Positions 53,055-64,000 are shown, numbered from the stretch's first letter. The stretch is DNA of 64,000 bases from Flavobacteriia bacterium (GCA_947463445.1 CANHRS010000005.1:1-64000), one strand, 5' to 3'. Translations and numbers: made by a program. Notes: generated by a model from the sequence alone, not told the origin.

Positions 53055-53699
53055 TTGTTTCATAAACCTTTAGCCTTGCAGAATTTTTCAGTACACGTTT
53101 GTGATGATCATCCATTAATAACCTCCGGTTTAGGTCAAGTATTTTTGGAGAGTGATTTTATTACAGATTTTTCTAGTTCTTATTCACGAGAGGGTCTTTT
53201 TTCTTTTCTAAAAAATAATAGGGTAGATTTATTATTGTTAGATATTTCATTGAAGGGACACAATAGTATGGATGATTTACCTTTCATTTTGATGACTTAT
53301 CCGGCTATTAAAGTGGTTTTAATTTCTACGTATGATTTAATGGATATTCAACTTAAAGCTAGGGAAGCTGGAGCGCATGGGTTTATTAGTAAATCGTCCA
53401 ATAATAATCAGTTAATTGATATTTGTCAGCAGGTGATGGAAGGGGTCGATTTTTGGAACTTTGATGCGTTAACTTCGTTTAATTTAGTGCAAACAAAAGG
53501 AGTAGATATAGATTTAACTGTGCGTGAAGTAGAGATTGTAAAATTATTATTGCGCGGGTATACGAATCAAAAAATTGCGAATCAATTAAGCATAAGCATT
53601 CATACCGTTCAGACGCATCGGAAAAATATCAAATCAAAATTACAATTAGAAGGAGCTTCAGATTTGATTGCTTTTGCGAATCGTTTCAAATTGGTTTAG
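53055..53699 (+). CDS. LuxR/NarL-type response regulator
   Basis: 214 aa if started at TTG 53055; an upstream stop rules out a longer frame, and TTG 53076 would give a 207-aa protein. There is no early ATG. The receiver domain has the acidic pair in VCDDHP (Asp17-Asp18), phospho-acceptor Asp63 in LLLDISL and conserved Lys113 in GFISKSS. The C-terminal helix-turn-helix has LTVREVEIVKLLLRGYTNQKIA and LSISIHTVQTHRKNI, the DNA-binding signature. It should be phosphorylated by the kinase encoded tail-to-tail with it (the two stop codons overlap in TTAG). It is the best candidate to bind the TACCCA-N5-TGGGTA palindromes. Confidence 0.92.
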   Translation: MFHKPLALQNFSVHVCDDHPLITSGLGQVFLESDFITDFSSSYSREGLFSFLKNNRVDLLLLDISLKGHNSMDDLPFILMTYPAIKVVLISTYDLMDIQLKAREAGAHGFISKSSNNNQLIDICQQVMEGVDFWNFDALTSFNLVQTKGVDIDLTVREVEIVKLLLRGYTNQKIANQLSISIHTVQTHRKNIKSKLQLEGASDLIAFANRFKLV

Positions 53700-55537
53700 T
53701 TATGAAACAAGGTGAAAATATGTTTCATCCCTTTTTCCAAGGGTAAGATTTCGAATTTACCAAGATCTTGGTTTATTCTTTCATGGATAGAAATAAGTCC
53801 AATTCCATTTTCAGAAATATTTTGCGGGTCATATCCAATACCATCATCTTCAATAATTAAGATGTATTCTTTTTTTGTTGCAATGATCTGAATACAAATA
53901 TTATTTGTTTTAGCGTGTTTTAATGCATTTTCAATTAGTTCTAAAAAAGTAAAGTATATGATTTCTTTTTTACTTTTTTCAATTTGCATTAATTGATTTT
54001 CAGTGTCGATGATGTTTATTTCAAAGGAAATAGAATTGAAGTAGTTTTCTAGTCTAAAGATTTCATCGTTTATTGCTTGCACTAAGGATTTTTTATCTAA
54101 TGAAAAAGTGTGTAAATCGTGGGAGATTTCACGGACGTTTTCTTGTATTTTTTGTATTTCCGTGAAGTAAAAATCCGTATTACTCTCCTTTTTTTTGTTG
54201 TCAGAATCTATTCTTCTGCCTAAAGCGGATAGGTTTGAACTTATGGAATCGTGCAGTTCTCTTGAGATTCTACCTCGTTCATTTAATAAACCTTGCAGGT
54301 ATTTTGTTAACGAATTTTGTCTTTCCTCGAGTAGATTTTTTTCTAATAAAACAGCTTGAATTTTGGATGAAAATAAATCGCGGTGTAGAATTAAAAGTAC
54401 TGTAAATCCTTCGAAAACAATGATCCAACGGAAAGTCATCAGTTGGTTGTAGGATGCGAGCGAAAGCGGTAGCAGTGAGAAAAATACGGTGAAAATTAGT
54501 GTAAACATAAAAAGCATTAAAAAATAGAGTGCTTTTGGAGATTTATTTTTTTTGTACGTATGGAAACAAATTCCAATCATCATGATTGGATAGAATACGA
54601 TTACTAGGTTACTTATTTTATAGAGAATTAGCGGGTAATTTGGCCAGTAAAAGAATGCAGTTTGATTTATAAGTATCGAAACAATGGATAGAAGAATTTT
54701 TATTTTAATGATTTTATGCAGTCTGGGGTAGTTTTGTTTTACTGCAAAAAGTTCGAATAATATCATCCATAAGCTGATAAATGTGACCGTAATAAAATAA
54801 TACATCGTAAAATATCCCTCTAAAAGGTAATTCGCTGGAAGTATCGTTCGGAATAAGCCATTGGAAATGATTAGGATTCCAAAAAGACTAACGATGTAAA
54901 ACGTGTAATAAATATGGACTTTTGATTTAAAACTAATTCCTGTAATAATTCCTAGAAAAAATAGCACACCTATTATTCCGTAAATTATGCCATATTGTAT
55001 TTCATCCTTTCTAGTGTGAATTAAATATTCATTTGATGCGTATATTGAAATTGGCAAGTTTGGGGTTGCAAATGTTTTATTAACTCTTATGTAACAGGTG
55101 TAATTTTTGTTTTTGTTTAAGTGAAAATTAAATATTGGATACCTGGAAACGAATTGTTTGCTGGAGGGATTTTTCAGTCCTTGATTACCTAAATCGTAAA
55201 TTTTGTTTTTTTGCGCGATGTAAAGTGTAAAATCTTCGATAAGTGGGTATTGACTTTCTAAATAATAGCGTCCACTTTTAGTGCATTTCAGCGTAAACTT
55301 TAACCACCAAATGTTTTTATCGAATGGTTTCTTAAATCCACTTGGGCTGACTTTTTTCCACTGTTGCGAGGATAATTGAACAATGGAATCTATGTTAAAA
55401 CTGTTTGTTTTTACGGATGTAGAATATAGATCAGCGTTTACAGTTGTTTTAGTAAATAATTTATCTAGTACAATCGTGTTCCCAAATCCAAGTATTGGAA
55501 AACAACTCACTAGGATAATAATTAATGTTTTAAACAC
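53696..55537 (-). CDS. Sensor histidine kinase with 7TMR-DISM sensor
   Basis: 613 aa, GTG start. Signal peptide (1-20), extracytoplasmic 7TMR-DISM-type beta domain (about 45-165, with LESQYPLIEDFTLYI), seven transmembrane segments (about 180-390), a coiled-coil linker, then a HisKA_3 dimerisation domain with phospho-His429 in RISRELHDSISSNLS and a HATPase_c domain (ELIENALKHAK; DDGIGYDP; NGIGLISI). This sensor class often detects carbohydrates or other surface ligands, which fits the envelope genes next to it, but the ligand is unknown. HisKA_3 kinases pair with LuxR-type regulators, matching the convergent gene. Confidence 0.92.
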   Translation of the reverse strand: MFKTLIIILVSCFPILGFGNTIVLDKLFTKTTVNADLYSTSVKTNSFNIDSIVQLSSQQWKKVSPSGFKKPFDKNIWWLKFTLKCTKSGRYYLESQYPLIEDFTLYIAQKNKIYDLGNQGLKNPSSKQFVSRYPIFNFHLNKNKNYTCYIRVNKTFATPNLPISIYASNEYLIHTRKDEIQYGIIYGIIGVLFFLGIITGISFKSKVHIYYTFYIVSLFGILIISNGLFRTILPANYLLEGYFTMYYFITVTFISLWMILFELFAVKQNYPRLHKIIKIKILLSIVSILINQTAFFYWPNYPLILYKISNLVIVFYPIMMIGICFHTYKKNKSPKALYFLMLFMFTLIFTVFFSLLPLSLASYNQLMTFRWIIVFEGFTVLLILHRDLFSSKIQAVLLEKNLLEERQNSLTKYLQGLLNERGRISRELHDSISSNLSALGRRIDSDNKKKESNTDFYFTEIQKIQENVREISHDLHTFSLDKKSLVQAINDEIFRLENYFNSISFEINIIDTENQLMQIEKSKKEIIYFTFLELIENALKHAKTNNICIQIIATKKEYILIIEDDGIGYDPQNISENGIGLISIHERINQDLGKFEILPLEKGMKHIFTLFHN

Positions 55538-55553
55538 TTGATTTAATTTTTAC

Positions 55554-55561
55554 CGAAAGTA
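55554..55561 (-). promoter_or_regulatory. Near-consensus -7 box TACTTTCG for the kinase gene
   Basis: One mismatch to TAnnTTTG, 16 nt before the GTG start. Its first base lies exactly 31 bp from the centre of the palindrome at 55592, mirroring the plus-strand promoter on the other side. Confidence 0.45.
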
Positions 55562-55583
55562 GGTAGAAAATTTAGTTTTAATA

Positions 55584-55600
55584 TACCCACTATATGGGTA
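55584..55600. promoter_or_regulatory. Palindromic operator TACCCA-N5-TGGGTA, site 1
   Basis: Perfect 6-bp arms with a 5-bp spacer, centred at 55592 between the divergent kinase and beta-helix genes. The same palindrome recurs at 59604-59624. Its position relative to the -7 boxes (31 bp) would place a bound dimer near -42, typical for an activator that contacts RNA polymerase. Confidence 0.7.
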
Positions 55601-55622
55601 GATTATACCAATTGTAATGGTC

Positions 55623-55630
55623 TAATTTTG
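55623..55630 (+). promoter_or_regulatory. -7 box TAATTTTG of the first surface gene set
   Basis: Exact TAnnTTTG preceded by GGTC, 16 nt before the ATG at 55647, and 31 bp from the palindrome centre. No TTG -33 element, as expected for an activator-dependent promoter. Confidence 0.6.
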
Positions 55631-55646
55631 ACAAAAATATTATATC

Positions 55647-56726
55647 ATGAAAAAAATATGTTTCGTTTTATTGTCCGTTGTAGGTATTTCCTTTTGTGGA
55701 CAAAGTAAAGTATTGACTGTTAGTAACAACACTAATTCACCAGGTCAGTATACTGATTTGCAAGCTGCTTGTGATGCTGCATCGGATTATGACACCATTT
55801 ATATACATGCTTCTGAAACATATTACAGCGCGGTGAACATTAAAAAACCTTTGGTTTTAATAGGGGAAGGAGCATTGCCAAATCAGCAAGTGTTGTGGGG
55901 AACCACTGTTTCTTCCATTACGTTTACGTATGACATTGGTTCAGACCTTCCTTCCTCTGGATCTAGAGTATATGGAATAAATGCTTCTTTTACGATTGGT
56001 ACAGATAAGAGTAATACTAATAAAGGAATAAGTGGTATTGTGTTTGAAAGATGTAAAGGATGGATTTATAGTAATCCAGGGGTTAATATTACAGGATTAT
56101 CGATTCATCAGTTTAATGGAGGCATACAATTGCAAGGTGCGCTAGTAAATTCAATTATTTCAAATTCGATATTACATAATGTTAAATGGGGACTTTATTC
56201 TTCAAACAATATAATTCGGAATTGTATTTTGTCTAGTTATTCTCAATTTTATGGAGCAGTTGTAGCGAATAATATTTTTTACGATCCAAATACAGGATCT
56301 ACTCTAAATTTTTTCAGTGCAGAGAACACAACGTTTACGAATAATGTATGTTATTTTTCAACTAATCCGTTTCCACTACAAAACGTTAATAACGTGACCT
56401 ATACTGGTAATATCGTTGATAAAAACCCTAAGTTTGTTCAATCCGCTACCGCTGGAGACGTTAATGGTTATGTTGCTTTTACAGCGCCACCTTTTGCAAA
56501 TTTCAATTTATTAGTTGGCTCTCCAGCATTAACATTGGGGACAGATGGAACACAAGCGGGTATTTATGGTGGTCCAACACCATGGGTAGATGGTGGAGAA
56601 GGTGTTTATCGATATTTTGCTATGCCAAGTCAAGTACCATATGTAACCGATATGGATATTTTGAATACCGCTATTCCATTGAACGGTACATTAAACGTAA
56701 AAATCAAAGCTAAGACACAACAATAA
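55647..56726 (+). CDS. Exported right-handed beta-helix-like protein, paralogue 1
   Basis: 359 aa. Signal peptide MKKICFVLLSVVGISFCGQS, then KVLTVSNNTNSPGQYTDLQAA, the opening common to pectin-lyase-fold proteins (the sequence DTIYIHASE and LVLIGEG follows). The middle has many short Asn/Ile/Val strands typical of a parallel beta helix. The C-terminal ~60 residues (AGIYGGPTPWVDGGEGVYRYF...DMDILNTAIPLNG) are strongly conserved with the genes at 56748 and 59673 and are not a recognisable T9SS sorting domain. No catalytic residues could be assigned. First gene of a three-gene unit. Confidence 0.8.
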   Translation: MKKICFVLLSVVGISFCGQSKVLTVSNNTNSPGQYTDLQAACDAASDYDTIYIHASETYYSAVNIKKPLVLIGEGALPNQQVLWGTTVSSITFTYDIGSDLPSSGSRVYGINASFTIGTDKSNTNKGISGIVFERCKGWIYSNPGVNITGLSIHQFNGGIQLQGALVNSIISNSILHNVKWGLYSSNNIIRNCILSSYSQFYGAVVANNIFYDPNTGSTLNFFSAENTTFTNNVCYFSTNPFPLQNVNNVTYTGNIVDKNPKFVQSATAGDVNGYVAFTAPPFANFNLLVGSPALTLGTDGTQAGIYGGPTPWVDGGEGVYRYFAMPSQVPYVTDMDILNTAIPLNGTLNVKIKAKTQQ

Positions 56727-56747
56727 ATCTTTTAAATATAAATTATT

Positions 56748-57788
56748 ATGAAAAAAATAAGTTTCATTTTGCTGTCCCTACTAGGAGTTTCTTTTTTTGG
56801 GCAAGCTAAGGTTTTGACTGTTAGTAATAACTCAAATTCGCCAGGTCAATATACTGATTTACAAGCGGCTTGTGATGCTTCGGCAATTAATGATACCATT
56901 TACATACATGCTTCCAATAGTATTTATGGAGCTGATATTAAAAAAAGTCTAACATTGATAGGTGAAGGAACTTTACCAGATAAACAAAATTTATTGACTA
57001 CTAAATGTAATTTAAACTTTAGTAAAACCGACCAAATTATCAGTGCATCCGGTACAAAGATAATTGGTATACATGGTGTTTTTAAATTAGCAAATCCTGA
57101 AGGGCTTTCTAACATTTTGTTTGATAGATGTAGAGGTTCAATAGAGTATGCTACATACAGTATTACGTATAAAAATATATTAATTTCTCATTTTGTAGGT
57201 TCAATAAGTGTTAGTTTAACTAATTCAATAATTTCTAATTCGATTATAATGAATTTTTTGAATATTCCATTAAGCCAATCGTCTAGTAATTTAATTACCC
57301 ACTCTTTAGTTTTGGATGCAAATACTTCTCTAAATGGATGTAATGTAAAAAATAGTATTTTTTATTCTATGGATAAAACAAAGAATACTTCGATTGATTT
57401 TATAAATTGCACCCTAGAGAATAACTTATTTTTCACATCAAATTTGCCTGTAATTTTAAATGGTGTTAATAACAAACTATCTATAGATCCTAAATTTTTG
57501 TCTCCTGAATCTGGTGCTGTTTTAATTACTTATAATAACGAGACAGTAGAGCCAAAAGCGGATTTCAAAGTTTTATCAGATTCTCCTGTCTTAACTATGG
57601 GTACTGATGGAAAAGAAATTGGTATTTATGGAGGTGAAAATCCATGGGTTGATGGAGGTAATGGTGTCTTTCGCTATCATACAATGCCTAATCAAGTCCC
57701 ACATATTACCCATATGGATATTTTAAATACTTCCGTTCCTTTAAATGGGAATTTAAAAGTATCTATTAAGGCAAAAGTACAACAATAA
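56748..57788 (+). CDS. Exported right-handed beta-helix-like protein, paralogue 2
   Basis: 346 aa, tandem duplicate of the preceding gene, 21 nt downstream. Signal peptide MKKISFILLSLLGVSFFGQA. The first ~70 residues and last ~60 (IGIYGGENPWVDGGNGVFRYH...MDILNTSVPLNG) closely match paralogue 1, whereas the beta-helix middle has diverged (SNILFDRCRGSIEYATYS). This pattern, constant ends with a variable core, suggests the ends serve export, anchoring or partner binding while the core recognises something variable. Function unknown. Confidence 0.8.
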   Translation: MKKISFILLSLLGVSFFGQAKVLTVSNNSNSPGQYTDLQAACDASAINDTIYIHASNSIYGADIKKSLTLIGEGTLPDKQNLLTTKCNLNFSKTDQIISASGTKIIGIHGVFKLANPEGLSNILFDRCRGSIEYATYSITYKNILISHFVGSISVSLTNSIISNSIIMNFLNIPLSQSSSNLITHSLVLDANTSLNGCNVKNSIFYSMDKTKNTSIDFINCTLENNLFFTSNLPVILNGVNNKLSIDPKFLSPESGAVLITYNNETVEPKADFKVLSDSPVLTMGTDGKEIGIYGGENPWVDGGNGVFRYHTMPNQVPHITHMDILNTSVPLNGNLKVSIKAKVQQ

Positions 57789-57809
57789 TTTTACGTTAAT
57801 AAATTGATT

Positions 57810-59528
57810 ATGAGATACTTATTTTTTATTGTTTGTATATTGTTAAGCGTAAACCTTTTTTCGCAAGATGTTGTTTCTGGAGAATATTTTTTTGATGTGG
57901 ATCCACAAATTGGGAAGGGGAAGGCGTTTGATTTTGTTGCAAGTACAAGTGTCAGCAAGACCTTGGATATTCCGACAACAGATTTAACTCCTGGATTCCA
58001 CAATTTATTTGTGCGCGTAAAGAATTCTAAAGCAGTTTGGGGTCACTCGGAAGGTAGGTTGTTTTATATTTTATCGACACCAACTACGGTAGTTACGAAA
58101 ATTGTTTCTGCAGAATGGTTTGTAGATAAAGACCCTGGAATTGGAAAAGGGACATCGTTTGTTGTAAGTCCGGATCAAACTTCTTCGTTATTAGATGTTA
58201 CTACCAAAACATTGACGGAAGGTTTCCATAATTTATTTGTCCGCGTAAAGAATAGTGCAGGAGTTTGGAGTCATTATGAAGGAAGGTTATTTTATGTTTT
58301 ACCAACTTCAACCACTACTTCTTCTAAAATTGTTTCTGCGGAATGGTTTGTTGACCAAGACCCTGGAATTGGAAAAGGTACATTGTTTGTTGTAACTTCA
58401 GATCAACCTTCCTCGTTGTTGGATGTTTCTACCCAAAAAATCACGGCTGGTTTTCATAATTTATTTGTGCGTGTCAAGAATAGTGCGGGAGTTTGGAGTC
58501 ATTACGAGGGGAGGTTATTTTATGTGATGCCTGCACTGATAAAGCAAGATACCAAAATTGTTTCTGCAGAATGGTTTGTAGATAAGGATCCTGGTATTGG
58601 AAAAGGAAAAATCATTCCATTTACAGCAGCTAATACATTGAGTGAAGTACTTGACTTGGCTTCAGCAGGTGTAAAAGATGGGGCACATAATTTATTTATT
58701 CGTGTGGTAAATGATAAAGGAGTTTGGAGTCATTACGAAGGACGTAAATTCCTAGTTTGTAAAGATCCGATGCAACAACCGATCTTGGAAGTTACTACTC
58801 AACTTTGTGCAGGGGACACACTGCATTTAACAGGTAAGCCTGTAGTAGGCGCAACAAGTTATTATTGGAAAGGACCAAATAGTTTTACCAAAACTGGATT
58901 AAAAGTAGAGCAATTCAATGTGGATACCCTGCAATCTGGAACGTATACCTTGTATGCAGTGCGTGCAGGTGGAACTGCTTGTGATACGACTAGTGCGAGT
59001 ATTTCCGTGTTTGTAAAACCATTACCAAAGGTTTCTTTTTCTTTGATGAGTCCGATCTGTGATACATTAAAAAGTGTTGCGTTAACTGGAGGAGTTCCAA
59101 TAGGAGGTACTTATGTTGGGAAACAGGTGACTAATTCTACGTTCAATACACTGAATAAGGCGGGTAGTTATACAATAGAATATACTTTCCAAGCTAAAAA
59201 TGGTTGTAATTCTCAAGCGACTTCAACGATAAAAGTGTTGAATTGTAGCCAAAGTTCTTCGGTGGATGAAGGTACAATTTCGGGGATACACATTTTTCCA
59301 AATCCAACTTCTGATTTCTTACATATTAGTTCTTTGGATCCATCTTTATTGCATGGATCCATCCACGTGTCGGATGTTTTAGGTAGATCATTAGTCCATT
59401 TGCGCGTGGAGAGTGTTAGTACAACTATTTCGTTACGAAAATTAGGTGGATCAGGTGTTTACTTGGTGTATATATATGATTCACAAGGTGTTTTTGTAAA
59501 ATGTACACAAGTAGTTCTGCAGGATTAA
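57810..59528 (+). CDS. T9SS-exported repeat protein 1
   Basis: 572 aa from ATG 57810 (a TTG two codons earlier is also in frame). Signal peptide ending near SVNLFSQ. Four tandem repeats of about 75 residues follow, each opening like SAEWFVDKDPGIGKG and closing like FHNLFVRVKNS.GVWSHYEGRLFYV. Then come two Ig/PKD-like domains with disulfide-type Cys (CAGDTLHLTGK; PICDTLKSVALTGG) and a C-terminal type IX sorting domain (IHIFPNPTSDFLHI ... GVYLVYIYDSQGVFVK). It should be secreted through the T9SS and attached to the cell surface. The DxDPGxGKG loops might bind a metal, which is speculation. Confidence 0.85.
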   Translation: MRYLFFIVCILLSVNLFSQDVVSGEYFFDVDPQIGKGKAFDFVASTSVSKTLDIPTTDLTPGFHNLFVRVKNSKAVWGHSEGRLFYILSTPTTVVTKIVSAEWFVDKDPGIGKGTSFVVSPDQTSSLLDVTTKTLTEGFHNLFVRVKNSAGVWSHYEGRLFYVLPTSTTTSSKIVSAEWFVDQDPGIGKGTLFVVTSDQPSSLLDVSTQKITAGFHNLFVRVKNSAGVWSHYEGRLFYVMPALIKQDTKIVSAEWFVDKDPGIGKGKIIPFTAANTLSEVLDLASAGVKDGAHNLFIRVVNDKGVWSHYEGRKFLVCKDPMQQPILEVTTQLCAGDTLHLTGKPVVGATSYYWKGPNSFTKTGLKVEQFNVDTLQSGTYTLYAVRAGGTACDTTSASISVFVKPLPKVSFSLMSPICDTLKSVALTGGVPIGGTYVGKQVTNSTFNTLNKAGSYTIEYTFQAKNGCNSQATSTIKVLNCSQSSSVDEGTISGIHIFPNPTSDFLHISSLDPSLLHGSIHVSDVLGRSLVHLRVESVSTTISLRKLGGSGVYLVYIYDSQGVFVKCTQVVLQD

Positions 59529-59567
59529 CCCTTTATTCAAAATAAATTTTCACTAGTAATTAAATTC

Positions 59568-59599
59568 AAAAGCTGTCCTCTAAAGGGACAGCTTTTTTT
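59568..59599 (+). terminator. Terminator between the two surface gene sets
   Basis: AAAAGCTGTCC / GGACAGCTTTT stem with a short loop and a run of seven T. It ends the first unit (55647-59528), and the second operator begins 5 nt later. Confidence 0.85.
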
Positions 59600-59603
59600 G
59601 AAA

Positions 59604-59624
59604 TATACCCATTAAGTGGGTATA
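59604..59624. promoter_or_regulatory. Palindromic operator TATACCCA-N5-TGGGTATA, site 2
   Basis: Perfect 8-bp arms with a 5-bp spacer, centred at 59614; its core is the same TACCCA-N5-TGGGTA as site 1. It sits 31 bp before the -7 box of the second surface gene set. Confidence 0.75.
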
Positions 59625-59644
59625 TATGAGCAGTTTTTAAGGTC

Positions 59645-59652
59645 TACATTTG
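59645..59652 (+). promoter_or_regulatory. -7 box TACATTTG of the second surface gene set
   Basis: Exact TAnnTTTG preceded by GGTC, as at 55623, 20 nt before the ATG at 59673 and 31 bp from the palindrome centre. Confidence 0.65.
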
Positions 59653-59672
59653 GTTGCTATAAAATTAGAAAA

Positions 59673-60755
59673 ATGAAAAGAAAAGTTTTTGGAGTCCTTG
59701 CTTGTATGGGCTTAACATTCTTGGGACATGCCAAGGTATTGACAGTAAGTAATAATGTTGCATCTCCGGGGCAATATACCGTTTTGCAAACAGCATGTGA
59801 TGCAGCAGCGTCCAACGACACAATTTACATCCATGGTTCGGAAAGTAGTTATGGTGAAGTAAGTATTACCAAGCCTTTGGTATTGATAGGTACAGGTGTA
59901 AATGCGCAAAAACGCTTTAAATTTTCTTCAAGTGTAAGTACTATTTCCATAGGTTGGAATGCGAGTACAACTCAGAATGGTGGAGGGAGTAAAATTTTCG
60001 GGTTAGATATTAATACATTTTACATAAATGATTCCCAAAATTCAAGTGGAATCAAAAACGTGTTGATACAAAGAAATAGAATTGGATATATAAGTGTTGG
60101 TGGTTATCGCGTTGCTTCAAACATAAATATCAATAATAATGTATTAGGAGGTGCAAGTATTAATGGTAAAAGTGTTTATCTCAAAAATAATGTGATTCTA
60201 GGAGGAGTTTCAGGAGGGGAAAAAGATTTTGTTGGGACATTGGTTGTAGCACATAATGTCATTTATGGATCTTGTTCTATTTCAAGGGCATCTGTTTATA
60301 ATAATATTTTTTATTCTTCCAGTTCTGAAGTTTTTCAGTATTGTCAGTACACGAGTATCACACGAAACTTGGTAATTGGGAAAATAAACTACACCAATGC
60401 CAATATTGTTTTTGGAACAAATACAGGGGGGGAAAATATTTTAAATGAGGATCCTTTATTTGTAGATGTAAATACAAATCTTATGTCCTATTCATATACT
60501 AATCCACCAACAGGGCCATTTGTAGATTACCATTTAAGTGCAGGTTCTCCAGCAATTGGTGCTGGTATTGGCGGAGTTGATTTAGGAATTTACGGAGGAG
60601 ATACACCATTTTTTGAGGGAACTTCCGAAGATGGTCGTAACCGTTATTTTCCAATGCCAGCTATTCCTGTTATGTTGGACATGAATATTGTTAATTCATC
60701 GGTGTTAAAAAACGGCAAGATAAAAGTAGAATTTAAAGCACGTAAACAAGATTAG
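59673..60755 (+). CDS. Exported right-handed beta-helix-like protein, paralogue 3
   Basis: 360 aa from ATG 59673; the frame extends upstream to a GTG inside the operator, which is rejected. Signal peptide MKRKVFGVLACMGLTFLGHA, then KVLTVSNNVASPGQYTVLQTA as in paralogues 1 and 2. The core has Asn-rich short strands (NININNNVLGGASING). The end (DLGIYGGDTPFFEG...MPAIPVMLDMNIVNSSVLKNG) is the most diverged of the three. First gene of the second unit, immediately followed by a repeat protein, mirroring the first unit. Confidence 0.8.
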   Translation: MKRKVFGVLACMGLTFLGHAKVLTVSNNVASPGQYTVLQTACDAAASNDTIYIHGSESSYGEVSITKPLVLIGTGVNAQKRFKFSSSVSTISIGWNASTTQNGGGSKIFGLDINTFYINDSQNSSGIKNVLIQRNRIGYISVGGYRVASNININNNVLGGASINGKSVYLKNNVILGGVSGGEKDFVGTLVVAHNVIYGSCSISRASVYNNIFYSSSSEVFQYCQYTSITRNLVIGKINYTNANIVFGTNTGGENILNEDPLFVDVNTNLMSYSYTNPPTGPFVDYHLSAGSPAIGAGIGGVDLGIYGGDTPFFEGTSEDGRNRYFPMPAIPVMLDMNIVNSSVLKNGKIKVEFKARKQD

Positions 60756-60756
60756 T

Positions 60757-62520
60757 ATGTTAAAGTACATTTTTGTTTCTTTTAGTGTGCTATTTTTTCA
60801 TGCATTACTATTTGCTCAAAACTTGACTTCTGGGGAGTATTTTTTTGATATAGAACCAGGAAACGGAAAGGCGCAAACATTTAGTTTTGTTTCAGACGCG
60901 CAAGTTTCAGGTAGTATTGAGTTAGATATTAGCACGTTATCACCAGGGTTTCATTTTTTATACACGCGCGTAAAAAATAGTGCGGGAGTTTGGAGTCATT
61001 ACGAAGGACGATCTTTTTATATTTTAGAAAATTCAACGTATACAACATTTGATCCACAGCCGAATTTGGTTCAGGGAGAATGGTTTATGGACACAGATCC
61101 AGGAAATGGTAAAGCGACTGCATTTAGTTTTGCATCTACAGGAGAAGTAAGTAAGTCATTAGACATCGATTTAGCGAATTTATCCGAAGGATTTCATCAA
61201 CTATTTATTCGTGTAAAAGCAGAAAATGGACGATGGAGTCATTACGAAGGTAGAATGTTTTATGTGATTGAGCCTTCGAAATATACGATGAGTGAAAATC
61301 AACCGATGCTTTCCGCTGCAGAATATTTTATGGATAAAGATCCAGGGTTAGGTAAGGGTAAACCGATTTCACTTTTACCTGCTGATTCTGTTTCCATGGT
61401 AGCAGATCTAGATGTTAGTAATTTACCGGTAGGTCCGCATACATTGAGTGTTCGCGTTCGAAATAGTAAAGGTGTTTGGAGTTTGTACGAACAACGTTCC
61501 TTCTTTATTATTGAAACTGCGCCAATACTTCCTCTTGCCAATACTCAATTGAAAGCATATGAATGGTACGTTGATAAAGATCCTGGATTTGGGAAAGGAA
61601 CCAAATTAGCTGTTGCACTAACAGATACCTTAGTTTCAGCTATCGATTTAACTATGTTGAATTTAACAGATGGAGAACATGTGTTATTCCTACGTGTTCA
61701 AAATACATTGCAACAATGGAGTTTGCAGGAAAGTCGAAAGTTTACCATTTGTACTAATGTACTTTCTACACCAGTAATTACTAGTCAACCTAAAATTTGT
61801 GTTGGAGATACGCTTTATTTGACGGGTAAGTCTGTAGTAGGAGCAACAAGTTATTTTTGGAAAGGACCAACTAGTTTTACCCAAGCGGGATTAAAAGTTG
61901 TTATGTCTCATGCGGATATCCTAAAATCTGGCGAATATAATTTATATGCAGTACGTGCCGGTGGAACAGGTTGTGATACCAGTAATGCAAATACGTTTGT
62001 TACCGTAATGCCTGTGCCGGAAGTAACATTTGATTTAGATACTTCGATTTGTGATACTGTAAAAAGTATTCAATTAACAGGAGGCGTTCCTAGTGGAGGT
62101 GTTTATTCTGGAGAGCATATTACGAACAATACATTTACTACAACAAGTAAAGCAGGAAGTTATACTGTTAATTATAGATATAAAGCCAAAAATGGTTGTT
62201 TTTCAGATGCATCCGCTTCAGTAGAAGTTGTGAATTGTACCCAAAGTTCGGTAGATGAACTATCGTTTTCAGGCATAGCTGTGTATCCAAATCCTACAAC
62301 CGACATTTTGTATTTAAGTTCCATAGGGAAATCCCTTTTAGGGTATACAGTTCAAATCTCCGATGTTTTAGGAAGAGAATTATATACAGAGAAGGTAAGT
62401 AATATTTCTACAAAGATTTCGTTACAAAAAATAGGTGCTTCGGGCATTTATTATGTGCATATATATGATGCTTTTGGTGTGTTTGTACAAAGTACACAAT
62501 TTGCATATACAGAAAATTAA
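60757..62520 (+). CDS. T9SS-exported repeat protein 2
   Basis: 587 aa, paralogue of the gene at 57810. Signal peptide (1-20, ending ALLFAQ). Four repeats open SGEYFFDIEPGNGKA, QGEWFMDTDPGNGKA, AAEYFMDKDPGLGKG and AYEWYVDKDPGFGKG, and close with WSHYEGRSFYI-like sequence that decays to WSLQESRKFTI in the fourth. Two Ig/PKD-like domains (CVGDTLYLTGK; SICDTVKSIQLTGG) and a T9SS sorting domain (IAVYPNPTTDILYL ... GIYYVHIYDAFGVFVQ) follow. It starts 1 nt after paralogue 3, so the two should be coupled. Confidence 0.85.
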   Translation: MLKYIFVSFSVLFFHALLFAQNLTSGEYFFDIEPGNGKAQTFSFVSDAQVSGSIELDISTLSPGFHFLYTRVKNSAGVWSHYEGRSFYILENSTYTTFDPQPNLVQGEWFMDTDPGNGKATAFSFASTGEVSKSLDIDLANLSEGFHQLFIRVKAENGRWSHYEGRMFYVIEPSKYTMSENQPMLSAAEYFMDKDPGLGKGKPISLLPADSVSMVADLDVSNLPVGPHTLSVRVRNSKGVWSLYEQRSFFIIETAPILPLANTQLKAYEWYVDKDPGFGKGTKLAVALTDTLVSAIDLTMLNLTDGEHVLFLRVQNTLQQWSLQESRKFTICTNVLSTPVITSQPKICVGDTLYLTGKSVVGATSYFWKGPTSFTQAGLKVVMSHADILKSGEYNLYAVRAGGTGCDTSNANTFVTVMPVPEVTFDLDTSICDTVKSIQLTGGVPSGGVYSGEHITNNTFTTTSKAGSYTVNYRYKAKNGCFSDASASVEVVNCTQSSVDELSFSGIAVYPNPTTDILYLSSIGKSLLGYTVQISDVLGRELYTEKVSNISTKISLQKIGASGIYYVHIYDAFGVFVQSTQFAYTEN

Positions 62521-62546
62521 GTTAATCATTCAAAAAATAATCTAAG

Positions 62547-63320
62547 ATGAAAAAAAGAGGTATAGCACAAAAAATTGGATTACTATCGTTTATATTATTG
62601 GTTTTATCAATCACATTTTCCTGTGAAAAAGAAGCGATCAATAAAACGAGTTCAGATGGAGGAACTATTGGCAATACAGCCACAACCACAACAACGACTA
62701 CAGGAAATACAACCGTAATTCCAAATACATCGTTTAATCCTTATGGGATTTGGCAACGGTTTGGATCTCCAAAAGGGTACAAAACAGATTTAGCAGTTGG
62801 AAATATTCCTGGTGAGCCTGCTAATCGGGTATATATGTGTGAGCATCCGGGCTCTCCATCAGAAGGTTTGTATAAGGGGTATATTAATGGGAATATTATT
62901 ACTTGGGATTCGGAATTTGGGTTGCCTAATGCTGAATTTAAGCAAGTGAATAATTATATGACTTTATATTTCAATGTTGGTTTACCGGAGGATGCAGGAA
63001 AGTATGCGCGAGGTATTTGGACGAATACGTGTGGTCCTTTGAGTAAAGAGAATACGAATGAAAATGGTTCAGTAGGTAATCTATTATTTTGGACAGCTTC
63101 AGATTTAGGTTGTGGAGATATCCAAGTTACCGTAGAAGGTGTAACAAAAACCATTGATTCTTATTATAGTGCATCGCCGTCATGCGGATCTACAGGTTGC
63201 GCAAATTTTACATTACCAGTAGGCGTTTATAGTTATACAGCAAGTTGTAGTAGTTATACCTGGAATGGTACAATCAGTTGCACAAATAATGGCTGTAGTA
63301 AAATGCAATTCATTCAATAA
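62547..63320 (+). CDS. Putative surface lipoprotein with Thr-rich linker
   Basis: 257 aa. A long signal ends SITFSC, giving a lipoprotein Cys near residue 27; the following residues EKEAINK are compatible with outer-membrane sorting in Bacteroidota. A linker rich in Thr, Gly and Asn (about 40-62) leads to a globular region with GIWQRFGSPKGYKTD and a Cys-rich C-terminal domain (DLGCGDIQVTVEG...SPSCGSTGCANFTLPVGVYSYTASC) that looks like a beta-sandwich. No known function. 26 nt after the repeat protein gene, probably the same transcript. Confidence 0.75.
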   Translation: MKKRGIAQKIGLLSFILLVLSITFSCEKEAINKTSSDGGTIGNTATTTTTTTGNTTVIPNTSFNPYGIWQRFGSPKGYKTDLAVGNIPGEPANRVYMCEHPGSPSEGLYKGYINGNIITWDSEFGLPNAEFKQVNNYMTLYFNVGLPEDAGKYARGIWTNTCGPLSKENTNENGSVGNLLFWTASDLGCGDIQVTVEGVTKTIDSYYSASPSCGSTGCANFTLPVGVYSYTASCSSYTWNGTISCTNNGCSKMQFIQ

Positions 63321-63436
63321 AGCGCTTTTGATTATCCTTTTTTTAAACAAAAGAAGACAATATGTATTCAAATGGGTTCGATACATGTGTGTTTAAATGA
63401 AATAATTAAGTTACAGAATCCAGTAAATAGTATCCA

Positions 63437-64000
63437 ATGAAAATACGTTTTTTAGCAGTTAGTAGTATTGCATTGTCACTTTTATTAGTACAATGTGTGG
63501 TGACTAAACCATTAGATTTTTCGGAAGTAAGTGTTGCGGAAGAGGGTGGTTTAAAGTTTAGTAAAATCAGTAATGAAAGTGATTTTGTTATAGGTCCAAA
63601 TGTGATGACGAGTAGTTATGTTTCAGGAAGAGGCAAGGTAAAAACAATTCGTTGGTATGCAGCACCATTTATCGGCCTATCAGCAGATGGGAAAAACATC
63701 GGGTTTATATCCAATAAAGGAAATGTCCATAACATACATATTAAATCGACCGTTGGAGGTTCTGCATTGGTGCAACGTACGTACAAGGGAGGTTGTTTTG
63801 ATTTAGCATTTTCGCACGATGGAAAGAATATTTGTTTTAGTGATAATTCGGATGGGAATCAAAATGTATATACTATCAACGCCAAAGAGGGTTCTGCTAT
63901 TCGCCAAATTACTTCCGCTCCAAATGGGGAGTTAGGTGCGATTTTTTCGTATGATGATAAAACGATTTTTTTCACAAAAGAGGAGAAATCATTTGTTTCA
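63437..64000 (+). CDS. Putative lipoprotein with PD40/TolB-like propeller repeats (partial)
   Basis: 188 codons from ATG 63437, open to the window edge, so the 3' end is missing. The N-terminus MKIRFLAVSSIALSLLLVQC resembles a lipoprotein signal, although Gln before the Cys is unusual. Propeller-like units are visible as LSADGKNIGFISNKGNVHNI, FSHDGKNICFSDNSDGNQNV and FSYDDKTIFFTKEE, the pattern of WD40-like PD40 repeats. Such proteins act as envelope scaffolds or binding modules. It lies 116 nt after the lipoprotein gene. Confidence 0.75.
   Translation, partial: MKIRFLAVSSIALSLLLVQCVVTKPLDFSEVSVAEEGGLKFSKISNESDFVIGPNVMTSSYVSGRGKVKTIRWYAAPFIGLSADGKNIGFISNKGNVHNIHIKSTVGGSALVQRTYKGGCFDLAFSHDGKNICFSDNSDGNQNVYTINAKEGSAIRQITSAPNGELGAIFSYDDKTIFFTKEEKSFVS

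Follow-up and report, generated by a model that had tools for sequence, protein, structure and literature searches.

Organization of the locus

Positions 53055 to 64000 of the 64,000-nt window (the whole stretch of DNA analyzed, CANHRS010000005.1:1-64000 of GCA_947463445.1, a Flavobacteriia bacterium) encode an exported system whose core is a pair of adjacent genes, one for a beta-helix protein, here called PbH, and one for a repeat protein carrying a type IX secretion system (T9SS) sorting domain, here called REP. The window is part of contig C5 (68,085 bases) of a 2.56-Mb draft genome. The gene order is alaS, a regulator, a sensor kinase convergent with it, PbH A, PbH B, REP1, a hairpin with a T-run, PbH C, REP2, two lipoproteins, a 269-aa protein, and dnaK. 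The open reading frames (ORFs) matched those of the original prediction, which had been made from the sequence alone, apart from two boundary corrections.

The first unit consists of PbH A (55647 to 56726, + strand), with a signal peptide, a right-handed beta-helix, and a conserved two-strand C-terminal tail; its paralog PbH B (56748 to 57788, +; 48% identity); and REP1 (57804 to 59528, +), with a signal peptide, four 76-aa immunoglobulin (Ig)-like repeats, Ig-like domains, and a T9SS type A sorting domain. For REP1, an ATG at 57810 is a likelier start than 57804. The second unit begins with PbH C (59673 to 60755, +; 360 aa), whose ortholog in the related genome G010 is 86% identical, and continues with REP2 (60757 to 62520, +), which has a signal peptide, four ~80-aa repeats, Ig-like domains, and the same type of sorting domain. 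The start of PbH C was placed at the ATG at 59673 and not at the GTG at 59616 because an operator and a promoter element lie in between; this start is also backed by conservation with a homologous locus (L104:8980-10062). A terminator-like hairpin with a T-run (59568 to 59599, +), read from the sequence, follows REP1 and would form the boundary between the two units.

The ORFs and the Por_Secre_tail match on both REPs bear out the earlier description of one plan occurring twice, namely, one or more PbHs followed by a four-repeat T9SS protein, and the proposed unit duplication is reflected in 34 to 48% identity among the PbHs and 49 to 50% between the REPs. The repeats are visible in the DNA too, with a spacing of 228 to 231 bp in REP1 and 240 to 243 bp in REP2. 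A Pfam scan of the window genes and the two contig genes beyond the window detected no SusC/SusD and no glycoside hydrolase; the locus thus lacks the combination of SusC/SusD with glycoside hydrolases or lyases that characterizes a polysaccharide utilization locus, as had been stated originally.

PbH and REP occur as a pair across Bacteroidota

A PbH profile built from six sequences was run against 84,980 species, each represented by a single genome (a profile made from all 29 PbHs had proved too divergent for this purpose), and the best 79 loci were kept, nearly all of them in Bacteroidota records and one in an Ignavibacteriae record. Four of the 79 end at or near a contig edge and were left out of the resolvable count. 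At every one of the remaining 75, a REP gene was next on the same strand, directly after PbH in 74 (including L116, whose REP gene contains one in-frame stop) and after 440 bp in L144, and no REP was located away from a PbH within these loci. Longest-frame ORF calling lost partners in GC-rich genomes, and a six-frame search regained them. The median gap between the two genes was 11 bp, up to five PbH genes stood in tandem before some REPs, and neighbors other than the partner gene were not conserved. A rule of one repeat per PbH was considered and dropped (PbH copy number versus REP repeat number, rho 0.23).

The reverse search was run with a REP profile against 119 Bacteroidia genomes and against 296 genomes of the phylum. 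The class-wide search yielded 32 REP genes, 31 with a PbH directly upstream and one fused to it; in the phylum-wide search a PbH lay directly upstream of all 30 resolvable REP genes, with two further REP genes at contig edges and three weak matches not confirmed as REP. Altogether, PbH precedes REP in 61 of the 62 resolvable genes, and the remaining one is the fusion; the forward and reverse sets have some genomes in common and are not fully independent. All resolvable loci tested thus show the pairing, with PbH preceding REP on the same strand or fused to it, and the arrangement is not due to chance. The original prediction had named a failure of the families to co-occur elsewhere as the result that would tell against it, and the outcome in the resolvable loci across Bacteroidota was the opposite. 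PbH-REP is therefore a phylum-wide pair and the core of the system, to which the kinase, the regulator, and the lipoproteins are genus-level additions.

In a separate search, the pair was also found on a plasmid of Hymenobacter volaticus, where the annotation names just a hypothetical protein and a CARDB domain protein. Our literature searches found no description of the PbH-REP pair, which, together with the shared operator (see below) and the T9SS domains of the REPs, supports the earlier view of an undescribed, co-regulated, exported system.

A natural fusion and co-divergence of the partners

The fused gene (L240:3817-7602) is a single open frame of 1,261 aa which encodes, in order, a signal peptide, a PbH (E = 4e-57), the PbH tail, one REP bead (E = 1e-15), PKD, DUF7619, and a Por_Secre_tail match that lies at the Pfam cutoff (26.9 versus 27 bits). 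The REP bead begins a few residues past the tail. The fusion speaks for joint action of the two proteins as a unit and indicates that a T9SS-exported chain can include PbH. The partners also diverge together: the similarity of PbHs correlated with that of their REPs (r = 0.61 over 63 pairs), the mean correlation fell to 0.37 when partners were swapped within genomes, and none of 2,000 such swaps reached 0.61.

Shared regulation alone would be compatible with operon pairing, and PbH and REP might then be separate surface factors that are merely co-expressed and form no physical complex. We consider this very improbable in view of the absence of exceptions among the resolvable loci (75 from the forward and 62 from the reverse search, partly overlapping sets), the conservation of the partner gene but not of other neighbors, the fusion, and the pair-specific co-divergence.

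PbH is a beta-helix protein with a conserved C-terminal tail

PbH is an exported protein of ~350 aa, a right-handed beta-helix with a conserved two-strand tail at the C terminus. In the structure model of PbH A (pLDDT 87, pTM 0.86), the beta-helix spans residues ~20 to 310, and the two C-terminal strands lie at 332 to 338 and 351 to 356. In fold comparison the top hit had a Z score of 19.7 over 248 residues, and the best matches (Z of 14 to 20) were beta-helix enzymes and tailspikes, which agrees with the earlier designation of the protein as beta-helix-like. The conserved positions are structural (glycines, ladder asparagines, and a GTDGTDxGIYGG cap), those of the tail are P331, G347, L349, and Q358, and the middle coils vary more. 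Judged from the sequences, this pattern suggests that the frame and the joint are constant and that one face varies. The family is absent from Pfam and NCBIfam. A divergent subtype at five loci (L090, L222, L229, L231, and L232; E of 1e-5 to 1e-10) has tails that end in DR and still has REP directly downstream; at L124 (6001-7017), the PbH frame stops early ("PQVTSLNI"), ahead of the tail, possibly through a frameshift.

PbH A has the right-handed parallel beta-helix typical of beta-helix polysaccharide lyases, and its nearest solved folds are mostly polysaccharide-acting proteins (PL6 alginate lyases, alginate epimerases, inulin lyases, pectate lyases, and tailspike depolymerases). It could accordingly be asked whether PbH is itself a lyase or epimerase-like enzyme, displayed by or beside REP, and the pair a small glycan-processing device; the sensor domain class of the kinase, which can bind carbohydrate, would fit such a role. 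We regard this as unlikely. No conserved catalytic constellation (a Lys/Arg/Glu group) was recognized among the near-invariant positions, no Pfam lyase family matched most of 80 PbHs, and the locus has neither a glycoside hydrolase nor SusC/D. While sharing the fold with PL6, AlgE4, RbmB, and other such proteins, PbH differs from them in its low identity (9 to 17%) and also in having a strict partner gene and the conserved two-strand tail. Processing of an external polymer, one of the two functions proposed originally, was therefore not supported, the REP repeats being Ig-like beads; binding of a polymer by PbH-REP is, on the sequence evidence, plausible.

PbH has a signal peptide and no lipobox, and none of the 80 PbHs has a T9SS sorting domain (Por_Secre_tail, CHU_C, and TIGR04183 were checked), which is why a surface location of PbH is deduced via REP. 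A protein with a signal peptide and without surface anchor or T9SS domain, strictly paired with and closely coupled to its client gene, might also be a periplasmic escort or assembly factor, i.e., a dedicated secretion chaperone for REP that is not itself displayed. This too seems improbable to us: in the natural fusion, PbH belongs to the chain that bears the T9SS-like tail, and the as many as five consecutive PbH genes before some REPs would be odd for a chaperone.

REP is a beaded T9SS cargo protein

Both REP1 and REP2 matched TIGR04183/PF18962, and their signal peptides were read from the sequence. A T9SS sorting domain was present in 43 of 48 REPs (Por_Secre_tail in 35 and CHU_C in 8). 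REPs typically have 2 to 7 Ig-like beads, often extra domains, and the sorting domain last; in the two REPs of the locus there are four repeats of ~75 to 81 aa per protein. The REP2 model consists of Ig-like beads (pLDDT 82), and its pTM of 0.39 is as expected for beads on flexible linkers. By sequence, no solved relative of the repeat region alone was found; neither Pfam nor NCBIfam has a family for the N-terminal repeat itself, and the repeats were not found in phages. Other REPs carry added PKD, Ig, or lipase-like domains: according to Pfam, 4 of the 48 have lipase/PGAP1-like alpha/beta hydrolase domains, and some (L146, L147, L158, and L176) start with "TPYPIIFVHG" segments.

The best fold and sequence matches of REP were to GhpA, the grappling hook protein of Aureispira (PDB 9flp and related), a beaded Ig-like surface stalk from the same phylum; the sequence match falls in the downstream Ig domains (profile 313 to 556) and is generic Ig-domain similarity only. 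REP also resembles T9SS type A/B cargo with Ig-like repeats (SprB-type adhesins) in its signal peptide, its Ig-like beads, and its C-terminal Por_Secre_tail or CHU_C, and differs in having an N-terminal repeat of no curated family and in always occurring with a PbH gene; a PorP/SprF-type gene is not part of the pair. The pair belongs with T9SS-dependent surface proteins and not with polysaccharide utilization loci.

A two-component system and operator at the locus

The regulator (53055 to 53699, +) is of the LuxR/NarL type, with a receiver and a GerE DNA-binding domain (Pfam Response_reg, 1.9e-14; GerE, 2.7e-15), and the convergent histidine kinase (53696 to 55537, -) has 7TMR-DISMED2, 7TMR-DISM_7TM, HisKA_3, and HATPase_c domains (Pfam). 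The shared operator described earlier, TACCCA-N5-TGGGTA, has only two exact sites in the 2.56-Mb genome, both upstream of the units: operator 1 (TACCCACTATATGGGTA; 55584 to 55600, +), between the kinase and PbH A, and operator 2 (TACCCATTAAGTGGGTA; 59606 to 59622, +). A -7 promoter element lies 22 bp past each of them (TAATTTTG at 55623 to 55630, + and TACATTTG at 59645 to 59652, +); the Bacteroidetes -7 consensus is TANNTTTG, with the element at -12 to -5 (PMC6847099), which places the operator center near -43. The reversed pattern, used as a control, was absent from this genome and from G010.

G010 likewise has two sites, in orthologous places. A form with a half-site gap of 4 bp, in place of the 5 bp of this genome and G010, occurs three times in G003 (a kinase-PbH locus) and twice in G001, always at the kinase locus, and twice in G011, beside a PbH gene; the kinases of G003 and G001 are 49% identical to that of this genome. 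The operator was thus found, in either form, in five genomes of the genus, with TAnnTTTG exactly 22 bp on at all 10 gene-directed sites. A match in G006 was set aside as chance, being located inside an ORF with an 11-bp spacing.

The heptamers bound by NarL are inverted, with 2 bp between them (e.g., TACCCCTAAAGGGGTA), and the NarL 7-2-7 sites at napF and yeaR lie at -40 to -49 and -38 to -47 (PMC4549865). The present system is of the NarL type in its GerE regulator, its inverted heptamers at the target promoters, and the activator-like position near -43; it differs in its 7TMR-DISM sensor, its dedication to one locus, and a center of 3 bp instead of 2 bp in this genome and G010. The regulator would bind TACCCA-N4/5-TGGGTA as a dimer ~43 bp upstream of the start site and, given this position, would probably act as an activator of the PbH-REP units and the lipoprotein genes; both the contact and the direction of regulation are deduced from sequence. 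In this genus, the kinase may sense an envelope or carbohydrate cue, a 7TMR-DISMED2 domain having been reported as carbohydrate binding in NicD (PMC8544897). A private sensor system seems to control the PbH-REP units in this genome.

Variable genes around the core

An accessory lipoprotein with a lipobox cysteine (62547 to 63320, +) begins 26 bp past REP2 and has an ortholog in the same position in G010. It is followed by a PD40/TolB-like lipoprotein (63437, +, ending beyond the window at contig position 64489). The sequence past 64000, which the original prediction had proposed to inspect, completes this gene and holds one for a 269-aa protein of no recognized family (64504 to 65313), with DnaK next. 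In G010, the genes from alaS through that of the 269-aa protein are arranged in this order as well, except that the first unit has a single PbH.

Kinase homologs at E ≤ 1e-40 were found in only 4 of 59 relatives, all of this genus. Of the components listed originally, PbH and REP thus make up the core, and the kinase, the regulator, and the TolB-like lipoprotein are confined to a few relatives. Since the operator-led genes in G003 and G001 include small lipoproteins, lipoproteins are part of the regulon and lie outside the phylum-wide core. One G001 locus (L254:4704-12616, contig C29), between dnaK and alaS, has the kinase, the regulator, two small lipoproteins, a 1,416-aa exported protein, and the same operator, and no PbH; compared with this genome, the locus content turns over and the control stays. 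In other families, 23 LuxR-type genes were found near PbH and were slightly commoner at short distance, too few for a claim.

A model for the PbH-REP core

Drawing on what can be read from the sequences, i.e., the pairing, the fusion, the co-divergence, the predicted PbH fold, the REP T9SS domain, and the unique operator with its fixed spacing, we consider it fairly probable that the two core proteins form a complex at the cell surface in which PbH is the recognition head and REP the T9SS stalk. PbH would leave the cytoplasm by Sec, join REP, and be displayed by it; the sorting domain of REP, a T9SS cargo, would bring it to the external side of the outer membrane. The PbH tail, which in the natural fusion runs almost straight into a REP bead, would be the likeliest joint, and the head would most likely recognize a glycan. 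The physical complex, the co-export of PbH, and the glycan ligand are what we infer beyond the sequences.

Several points weigh against this model. Literature searches found no T9SS case in which a partner lacking the C-terminal sorting domain is carried along. Only a single fusion was seen, with no more in the family of the fused example when searched, and adjacency with joint inheritance could by itself produce co-divergence, even of proteins that make no contact. PbH-adjacent REPs were the seed of the REP profile, so that distant unpaired forms could be missed. PbH copy and REP repeat numbers are weakly correlated, and kinase, regulator, and operator are found at the genus level only.

The complex might, more tentatively, exemplify a general T9SS display route, in which a folded beta-helix without its own T9SS signal crosses the outer membrane with a partner and, through its C-terminal strands, completes or docks on the first Ig-like repeat of that partner; we put this forward as a possibility about which we are doubtful.

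PbH-REP is a common Bacteroidota surface system without a curated family for its beta-helix partner. With this pair, export of preassembled complexes by the T9SS could be tested directly, and the private kinase, regulator, and operator offer a genetic handle on the cue. If PbH is a recognition head, its family would be a numerous group of beta-helix binders, spread over freshwater, groundwater, soil, plasmid-borne, and gut-type Bacteroidota.

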